The translations under genes and the position numbers were made by a program. Below, one piece after another: positions 25,992-28,180 of a DNA stretch of 64,000 bases. Each line of letters begins with the position of its first letter. The stretch's first letter is position 1. The notes under the pieces are model-generated. The model was not told where the DNA came from and searched no databases. It was given only the letters and a program-made list of their open reading frames with translations. Origin of the DNA: an uncultured Brachyspira sp. (GTDB taxonomy: Bacteria; Spirochaetota; Brachyspiria; Brachyspirales; Brachyspiraceae); contig NZ_CALXKQ010000001.1 in NCBI RefSeq assembly GCF_944388875.1, positions 310,001-374,000 of the forward strand. Direction: 5' to 3'.

Positions 25992-26004
25992 ATATGCAAA
26001 TTCA

Positions 26005-26343
26005 AAATTTAATAAACACTTGGGTGGGTGTGCTATTTCTCATCAAGCAAAAAAACAATTAAAAATTATATTTCTAAATAAAATAAAAAACTTTAAAGGG
26101 AGGGGATGTAATTTAAGTTAAAAATCTCATTACAAGCCCCACCCTATAGTTTTATTAATTTAATTTCTGATTTTTATGTTTTTTCTTTTTTGTTTATACT
26201 GTTATTTTGATGCCCGCCCTAGTTTTATTTAAATTTTTAGCTATATCACCGCACGCAAAATAAAATTACAAATATAATTAAAATTATCAATATAAATTCA
26301 ATTATATATAAAATTTATTTAACCGTGCGTGAAATAAATCCTC
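26005..26343. repeat. Palindromic module 1 (about 339 bp), empty slot
   Basis: The unit runs from AAATTTAATAAACACTTGGG to the same sequence in the next unit. In order it holds: a G-rich arm (CTTGGGTGGGTG); an AT spacer; hairpin B, with arms AAAGGGAGGGGATGTAAT and ATTACAAGCCCCACCCTAT around a loop of about 16 nt; an AT spacer; a C-rich arm (GCCCGCCCTAG) that pairs with the G-rich arm of the next unit; and hairpin A, with arms CGCACG and CGTGCG. There is no open frame of note in it. It is nearly identical to module 2. Confidence 0.9.
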
Positions 26344-26684
26344 AAATTTAATAAATACTTGGGAGGGTGTGCTAGTTCTTATAAAACAATAAAATAATTA
26401 AAAATTATATTTCTAAATAAAATAAAAAACTTTAAAGGGAGGGGATGTAATTTAAGTTAAAAATCTCATTACAAGCCCCACCCTATAGTTTTATTAATTT
26501 AATTTCTAATTTTTATGATTTTTTCTTTTTTGTTTATACTCTTATTTTGATGCCCGCCCTAGTTTTATTTAAATTTTTTAACTGAATAACCGCACGCAGA
26601 ATAAAATTATAAATATAAAGAAAATTATTAATTAAAATTCAATCATATATAACATTCATTTAACCGTGCGTTTAATTGAGTTTA
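26344..26684. repeat. Palindromic module 2 (about 341 bp), empty slot
   Basis: A direct repeat of module 1 with a few substitutions and tiny indels, mainly in the AT-rich spacers; the G-rich, C-rich and hairpin arms are kept. The hairpin A pair (CCGCACGC and AACCGTGCGT) and the hairpin B pair are the same as in module 1. The loop of hairpin B is again only about 16 nt. Confidence 0.9.
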
Positions 26685-26792
26685 AAATTTAATAAACGCT
26701 TGGGAGGGTGTGCTTTTTCTAATTAAACAATAAAATAATTAAAAATTCTATTTCTGAATAAAATAAAAAATTTTAAAGGGCGGGGTATGTAA
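26685..26792. repeat. Palindromic module 3, left half
   Basis: The first third of the module (AAATTTAATAAACGCTTGGG ... AAAGGGCGGGGTATGTAA) up to the left arm of hairpin B. Where modules 1 and 2 continue into a short loop, this copy continues into the 3' end of the ankyrin gene at 26813. Confidence 0.85.
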
Positions 26793-26812
26793 ATAGTTTT
26801 TTAATTATTTAG

Positions 26813-27766
26813 CTATACTTTATATTTTACTAATAATTCAATAGTCATTTGTCTTTTATATAACTCAGCATAATATAAAGCATCATGTCCATCATTATCT
26901 TTTATATTAATATCAGCACCATTTTTTATTAAATACTCTGCTAAATTTAAATGCTCATTTAAGCATGCCATAATTAAAGGAGTTTCTCCATAACGGTTCT
27001 TTATATTAATATCAATTCCTTTACTCAATATATATTTAGCTAATTCAAAATAATTATTTTCACAGCATATAAATAGTGCTGACTTATAATTTTCTTCATT
27101 TGCATAATTTAGTAAATACTCAATTATTTTAATATCTAAATCTAATATTGTACAATAGTCAAAATATTCAAAAATATTATGATTATTAATTTTTACATTT
27201 ATATTGGCACCATTTCTAACTAAATATTTAACCCACTCTAAGTTATTTTTTCCACAAGCCTCAATTAATAATATTTCTTTTATATGAAATTTTTTTTCCA
27301 AATATTCTATCAAATCGGCATCTTGTTTTTTATAAACCTCTTTAAATATTTTTATTATTAAATATGAACGATTTTTTAAACGATCTATAAAATATTTAAA
27401 AAGTTCAAATTTGTTATATTCATTATCAGAATGTATTAACTTTCTAATTATCTCTGCACAGTTATCAGAACTTATATAAAATTTTTTACTTATGGCATAT
27501 TTAAAGAAATCCATATAATTATTGTCTATAAGAATTGAAGATATTTTAAATAAAAAATCATCGCTTATTTTTATAAATTTCTTGTCAGATAAATAATCTA
27601 TGAAGCATTTAAAAAGCTTAAATTTATTATCTTCATTATCGTAATGTATTAAATTTCTAACTATTTCTACACCATTATCAGAGCAATAATTTTTTATATT
27701 ATTTTTAAAAAATAATTTAAAATCTTTTAAATTTCCACTTCTGCAAATTTTTTCTAATTTTTTCAT
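26813..27766 (-). CDS. Ankyrin-repeat protein lying inside a repeat module
   Basis: The 317-residue protein has ankyrin repeats in its C-terminal half, clearest at GETPLIMACLNEHLNLAEYL followed by IKNGADINIKD. The N-terminal half contains an internal duplication: residues 31-60 (EIVRNLIHYDNEDNKFKLFK) and 102-131 (EIIRKLIHSDNEYNKFELFK). There is no signal peptide or membrane helix. The gene sits exactly between the two arms of hairpin B of module 3, so its 3' and 5' flanks are the halves of a repeat that is otherwise continuous. Function and partner are unknown. Confidence 0.82.
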   Translation of the reverse strand: MKKLEKICRSGNLKDFKLFFKNNIKNYCSDNGVEIVRNLIHYDNEDNKFKLFKCFIDYLSDKKFIKISDDFLFKISSILIDNNYMDFFKYAISKKFYISSDNCAEIIRKLIHSDNEYNKFELFKYFIDRLKNRSYLIIKIFKEVYKKQDADLIEYLEKKFHIKEILLIEACGKNNLEWVKYLVRNGANINVKINNHNIFEYFDYCTILDLDIKIIEYLLNYANEENYKSALFICCENNYFELAKYILSKGIDINIKNRYGETPLIMACLNEHLNLAEYLIKNGADINIKDNDGHDALYYAELYKRQMTIELLVKYKV

Positions 27767-27859
27767 ATAAAGCTGCTCCTTAAATTAATTATTTAAAATT
27801 ATAAAATGATTATGCGACAGTTTTTGTCAGTATTTTTGTTATTTTAAAACAAGATTAAA

Positions 27860-28072
27860 TATTATTCTCACTCCCCCACCCTTTATATTTAATGCTTAAT
27901 TTTGAATTTGAAATTTTATTTATCTTTATTGCTTTAATATGAATGAGAATGCCCACCCTAGAGTTTTTTAACTTTCTACACTAATTAACGCACGATTAAT
28001 ATTTTATTTCAAAATAAGCGTTATGAGTAAAGCAATTTAAATTATCCCAAAAATCAATTTACCGTGCGTATT
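27860..28072. repeat. Palindromic module 3, right half (diverged)
   Basis: After the ankyrin gene the module resumes: a C-rich right arm of hairpin B (CTCCCCCACCCTTTATATT), an AT spacer, the C-rich arm GCCCACCCTAG, and hairpin A (AACGCACG ... TACCGTGCGT). It has diverged more from modules 1 and 2 in the spacers, but the order of elements is kept. The remaining sequence to 28180 contains no other gene and must hold the guaA promoter. Confidence 0.75.
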
Positions 28073-28180
28073 AAATTTTTTTTATATATGCATTGTGTTA
28101 TGATAACTATTAATTGAAATTTTATCATTTTGATGTAATATTAAAAAATTCATAGTTTATTTTTTATAAAAGAGGAATAT

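Follow-up and report, generated by a model that had tools for sequence, protein, structure and literature searches.

The 64-kb window analysed in this work (the whole stretch of DNA, positions 310,001-374,000 of NZ_CALXKQ010000001.1) belongs to a 3.1-Mb draft genome of an uncultured Brachyspira sp., coded G000, and contains three tandem palindromic modules, the last of which encloses a gene for an ankyrin-repeat protein. The genome set used for comparison comprised 26 members of one genus, G000 and 25 others. We consider it somewhat better than an even chance that the modules represent a Brachyspira-specific mosaic repeat similar to the bacterial interspersed mosaic elements (BIMEs), whose copies allow the genes at the palindrome centre to be exchanged by homologous recombination. 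Each module consists of two facing half-modules (h+ and h-) of ~90 nt, extending from CTTGGGNGGG to GGGNGGGG, which meet at the centre of the B palindrome and are followed by a C hairpin. The following features were assigned at the locus (ORF, open reading frame):

26016..26105, plus strand: module 1 half-module h+ (A-left to B-left arm), nhmmer profile match
26106..26136, no strand: module 1 B palindrome centre, empty slot; sequence between both h matches
26137..26224, minus strand: module 1 half-module h- (B-right to A-right), nhmmer profile match
26250..26329, no strand: C hairpin 1 (CGCACG ... CGTGCG), from the motif pair and an alignment of 29 C regions
26355..26444, plus strand: module 2 half-module h+, nhmmer profile match
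26445..26475, no strand: module 2 B palindrome centre, empty slot; sequence between both h matches
26476..26564, minus strand: module 2 half-module h-, nhmmer profile match
26591..26670, no strand: C hairpin 2, from the motif pair and the alignment of 29 C regions
26695..26785, plus strand: module 3 half-module h+, left border of the filled slot, nhmmer profile match
26786..27873, no strand: filled B slot, with the ankyrin gene and its own upstream region between the B palindrome halves, delimited against the empty modules of other species and against the G006 copy
26813..27766, minus strand: slot gene, ORF for a 317-aa ankyrin-repeat protein (Pfam Ank_2, E 2.7e-22)
27874..27964, minus strand: module 3 half-module h-, right border of the filled slot, nhmmer profile match
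27989..28068, no strand: C hairpin 3, kept ahead of guaA across the genus, by between-genome comparison
24180..25940, plus strand: left neighbour, an ORF which, from general knowledge of the family, we take to be rpoD; orthologues in G002, G015 and G018
28181..29725, plus strand: right neighbour, an ORF which on the same grounds is presumably guaA; anchor for the between-genome comparison

A preliminary description of the locus regarded modules 1 and 2 as near-identical direct repeats and module 3 as a copy filled by exactly one gene. Both statements hold: modules 1 and 2 are spaced by 339 nt with 94% identity over 187 nt, and the half-modules of module 3 lie 1,089 nt apart with only the 317-aa ankyrin ORF inside. 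Modules 2 and 3 likewise form a direct repeat (spacing 341, 84% identity over 222 nt, C hairpin included). The B hairpin described in modules 1 and 2 is present as a palindrome, with half-module matches 32 nt apart, but its arms are imperfect: GGGAGGGG stands opposite CCCCACCC with one A-A mismatch, and module 3 has GGGCGGGG and CCCCCACCC instead. An outer A pair (CTTGGGNGGG / CCCNCCCTAG) also belongs to the natural unit, as does the C hairpin (CGCACG-69-CGTGCG). The resulting plan is h+/B-centre/h-/C with a period of ~340 bp and a regular spacing in nt (h+ 36 h-; h- 25 C 25 h+), in which each h+/h- pair is an imperfect palindrome of ~230 bp.

A search of G000 and other Brachyspira genomes with the repeat motifs revealed a dispersed family with many copies. 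In 567 kb of G000 fetched around matches, the nhmmer profile of h detected at least 153 copies at E<1e-3, and in the genome the A motif occurs 77 times (12 exact copies, the others with 1-2 mismatches) versus once for its reversed control; this abundance is far beyond chance. Other genomes contain at least 150 half-modules (G004), or 67 (G010) and 53 (G011) among the candidates scored. The 21-base core motif, corresponding to one B arm, was found at 32 places in the 84,980-genome GTDB collection, all in Brachyspira; a pattern requiring both B arms gave zero matches in that collection because the two arms do not have the same sequence. No repeats were seen at the loci examined in the deep-branching G001, G003 and G019 (the G019 guaA locus was outside the profile comparison). 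No published description of the family was found in the literature searched, many subscription papers being outside that search. The copies in G000 are arranged as single modules, tandem arrays with a ~340-bp period, direct h arrays with a ~155-bp period, and lone halves; the one-direction arrays lie at C36:24-2076 and C9:88526-89908, and arrays elsewhere alternate. Half-modules are intergenic, and the gene pairs flanking them show every relative orientation.

The slot before guaA was compared across the genus, and the closing arm and C hairpin were found ahead of guaA in most of it. The module is complete and empty in eight genomes (G002, G004, G005, G011, G012, G014, G015 and G018), filled with the ankyrin gene in G000 and G006, and present with a decayed copy of that gene in G022; only its right half is left in G007, G009, G023 and G025. 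Thus the empty and filled cassettes first proposed from the window itself do exist, as two states of one module at an orthologous position in related species. The refuting conditions set in the preliminary description (modules that never enclose other genes, or an ankyrin gene with constant flanks and no empty form) did not overturn the idea. The empty modules retain the standard loop sequence. The two filled genomes are not sisters on the guaA tree, a single-gene tree that serves as a rough guide only, and the ankyrin protein has no further match in the genus at E<=1e-20.

Between G000 and G006, identity amounts to 96.3% in the ankyrin coding region and 94.9% in the non-coding part of the slot, compared with 80.4% in the right arm, 67% in the right C and 90.4% in guaA; on the right side, the drop from 95% to 80% is located at the B centre. 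The synonymous divergence (dS) of the ankyrin gene is 0.093, versus 0.50 for guaA and 1.13 for the hemolysin III gene. Since this dS is far below that of guaA and the identity drops at the right B centre, the ankyrin gene moved recently. The left arms are 92.9% identical and mark no clear left border, because other species also have similar left arms at the guaA locus (92% for G002). The ankyrin ORF itself varies in repeat number, from 317 aa in the window to ~572 aa on contig C4 of G006, where an extra repeat block is present. Gene order to the left of the guaA module, compared in 20 genomes, also varies (rpoD, a 289-aa gene, a 537-aa gene and others), and the module therefore often lies at a rearrangement border; the 537-aa gene has also been found by others alongside a 138-aa PIN-like gene.

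Further genes occupy slots of the same kind, and the contents listed so far include ankyrin, PepSY-like, lipoprotein, Mrr-type and DUF285 genes. In G004, a composite h+h-C h+[126-aa PepSY-like gene]h-C is present at two loci, 1.409 and 1.635 Mb. These copies share 1,437 bp at 96.5% identity, are limited by the outer repeat ends and have unrelated flanks; their first modules are 78-88% alike and the remainder ~99%. The PepSY-like dS is 0.063 between the two G004 copies and 0.224 between G004/G005 orthologues (guaA, 0.296). The copies within G004 are closer than the orthologues, so they exchanged sequence within that genome. Over the genus, the PepSY-like gene stands behind an h+ half-palindrome at four loci, where the homology on the right stops near the palindrome centre; more distant relatives carry the gene without h nearby. 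At one of its loci, designated X, the slot is filled in 4 genomes and decayed or half-flanked in others, and 16 have no element. The lipoprotein slot contains an intact gene in G006, a broken one in G004 and none in G005 (a 155-bp slot), with both arms kept, and in G004 the Mrr-type and DUF285 genes occupy consecutive slots. Slot contents thus move between species and loci faster than their flanks.

The modules themselves come and go as complete ~340-bp units, in agreement with the tandem duplication suggested earlier. In 91 site comparisons over 200-240 kb of synteny (G004/G005/G006), 51 sites had the same architecture, 30 differed, mostly by whole units, and 10 were without the element; no clean insertion site was seen in this set.

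Taken together, the family behaves like a cassette system, with no dedicated recombinase shown. The simplest account that the data suggest is slot exchange by homologous recombination. Tandem modules are direct repeats around the slot gene, as modules 2 and 3 are in the window; recombination between them would delete the slot gene and leave an intact empty module, or alternatively could release the gene as a circle. A module elsewhere in the genome, or one on incoming DNA, would offer homologous arms through which a slot could gain a gene and loci could convert one another. Between species, the Brachyspira gene transfer agent (PMC2650404) may be the carrier. A dedicated recombinase would be unneeded in such a scheme.

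Several points weigh against this account. Recombination is inferred only, no event having been observed. Direct repeats at 84% identity are poor RecA substrates in other bacteria, and the position of junctions near the palindrome centre is left unexplained by plain homologous recombination alone. In G000, 32 lone halves also stop close to the dyad centre: their match to the paired consensus fades at +17 to +20, with none beyond, so ends fall preferentially at the centre, with or without a gene there. Core genes are flanked like slot genes, and therefore not every filled slot represents a gained gene. The hemolysin III gene is single-copy in 24 of the 26 genomes and lies between facing halves only in G000, with no half-module nearby in most genomes; the repeats therefore came to the gene. 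It was considered as a second inserted cargo and rejected as a resident core gene. Two further genes, which we read from their sequences as leuS and thiL, also lie between facing halves in G004. Some slots thus arose by repeats assembling around a resident gene. Moreover, B ends that face each other within 1.5 kb are in excess (12 versus 4.5 expected, P 0.0005), which speaks for the account, but few of these loci are independent, some being orthologous.

The preliminary description also held that any mover would act from elsewhere. In that scheme, h and C would be the ends recognized by a transposase or site-specific recombinase encoded in trans, and a 'C-h-gene-h-C' unit would move whole. The composite common to two G004 loci, bounded by outer repeat ends within unrelated flanks, agrees with this scheme, as do the junctions and lone halves that stop at the dyad centre and the high copy number confined to one genus. 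Nevertheless, the Y1 transposase (PF01797), the sole recombinase family searched, was found in 0 of the 26 genomes (other recombinase and transposase families and integrases were not searched); IS200/IS605-type mobilisation was rejected for this reason. The syntenic regions, in which elements are mostly common to the species, lack a clean insertion site, and the first module of the two G004 copies, at 78-88% against ~99% for the rest, is as expected if sequence was converted into a module already in place. These two PepSY-like copies also show short direct matches, which are ambiguous as a target duplication. We regard movement in trans as unlikely: no mover was found, and recombination between modules would account for the data without one. 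Of the proposal of a unit that gains and loses genes, three parts stand, namely the empty and filled forms at one place, the various genes found in slots of this type and the tandem duplication by whole units; a dedicated gene-moving element exceeds the evidence. The broader view of a genus-wide gene exchange appears improbable to the same degree; here dyad centres would be specific entry points for accessory genes, and an unknown enzyme, or breaks and their repair at the centre, would drive the circulation of filled and empty cassettes among loci and species. Cutting of hairpins by SbcCD is not claimed as the source of such breaks: no SbcD (TIGR00619) scored over the curated cut-off in the 26 genomes, where weak sub-threshold matches correspond to a ~370-aa ORF in 15 genomes. 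This lack may help long palindromes to persist.

A slightly less probable alternative is that abundant intergenic half-modules face each other around genes by chance and that 'empty' modules reflect simple gene deletion. The flanked core genes (hemolysin III, leuS and thiL), the hemolysin III loci with no half-module nearby and the commonness of lone halves are what such coincidence would produce. The excess of closely facing B ends argues in the other direction, as do the standard loop sequence, intact in empty modules, and the ankyrin and PepSY-like slots, which moved more recently than their surroundings.

Finally, the modules might be RNA hairpins, either terminators or regulatory RNAs, kept for their structure, with gene insertion incidental. 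Module 1 does fold better than 100 of 100 shuffles (z -5.0). However, an alignment of 32 modules gave 7 consensus pairs with zero compensatory changes, so that the covariation sought in the arms failed to appear, and pairing of the free middle base of the GGGNGGG motifs between the two arms was rarer than in shuffled sets (A, 21 versus 23.4; B, 20 versus 24.5). The arms are therefore maintained as sequence motifs, not visibly as stems. The earlier picture of fixed palindromic arms has to be modified accordingly: they are not conserved as pairing hairpins, many half-palindromes stand alone, and core genes are flanked likewise. In spite of the strong fold and the position between genes, a structural RNA is very improbable given this pairing record, the absence of any Rfam match at the locus up to E 1, and flanking genes in every relative orientation.

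Among known systems, the architecture is closest to that of BIMEs and the effect to that of passenger-gene cassettes. Like BIMEs and their repetitive extragenic palindromic (REP) units, as defined in PMC2817692, the Brachyspira repeats are high-copy intergenic imperfect palindromes in alternating orientation that form mosaic arrays with a second motif, with ~150+ units per genome. They differ in having half-modules of ~90 nt with the motifs CTTGGGNGGG and GGGNGGGG rather than REP palindromes of 20-40 nt, in lacking both a GTAG-type (GT(A/G)G) head and a Y1 (RAYT) transposase, and in carrying accessory genes at the palindrome centre. With mobile insertion cassettes of the MIC231 type, compared by citation and not by sequence, the ankyrin, PepSY-like and lipoprotein slots share a passenger gene between inverted repeats and no transposase inside; in contrast, no related insertion sequence (IS) with the same ends was found in a search limited to Y1, the 'empty' form is a palindrome and not an IS, and no target duplication is shown. 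Integron gene cassettes are exchangeable single genes beside imperfect palindromes, and to that extent similar, but the Brachyspira slot gene sits within the palindrome and occurs on either strand, at sites dispersed over the genome. Miniature inverted-repeat transposable elements (Correia, RUP, ERIC and Rickettsia palindromic elements; features from PMC2229807) are also small non-coding inverted repeats with many copies in one bacterial group; the Brachyspira repeat shows no defined terminal repeat with a clear target duplication in the sites compared, grows into arrays by whole units and has genes in the centre. PMC1525189 reports a link between ISs and the REP/BIME palindromes that they enter, where DNA is likewise joined inside a repetitive palindrome, although the Brachyspira insert is an ordinary accessory gene and not an IS. 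The family is thus placed among bacterial interspersed mosaic repeats, and gene slots at the dyad centre are what sets it apart.

Brachyspira genomes vary in gene content and gene order. If the ~150+ half-modules per genome are exchange sites, they would offer ready-made homology for incoming fragments and explain part of this variation. The question raised is why genes join at the palindrome centre and how palindromes of ~230 bp persist.

Two minor observations concern the distribution of the repeats. Many G000 contigs terminate in them (e.g. C2, C4, C7, C16, C20, C28, C36 and C46), and they probably broke the assembly at those ends. In the complete G004 genome, half-modules cluster in the chromosome half opposite dnaA: their mean position is 1.67 Mb, whereas dnaA lies at 2.96 Mb (Rayleigh p ~6e-19 among 109 listed half-modules), a bias that is weaker in G010 and G011.
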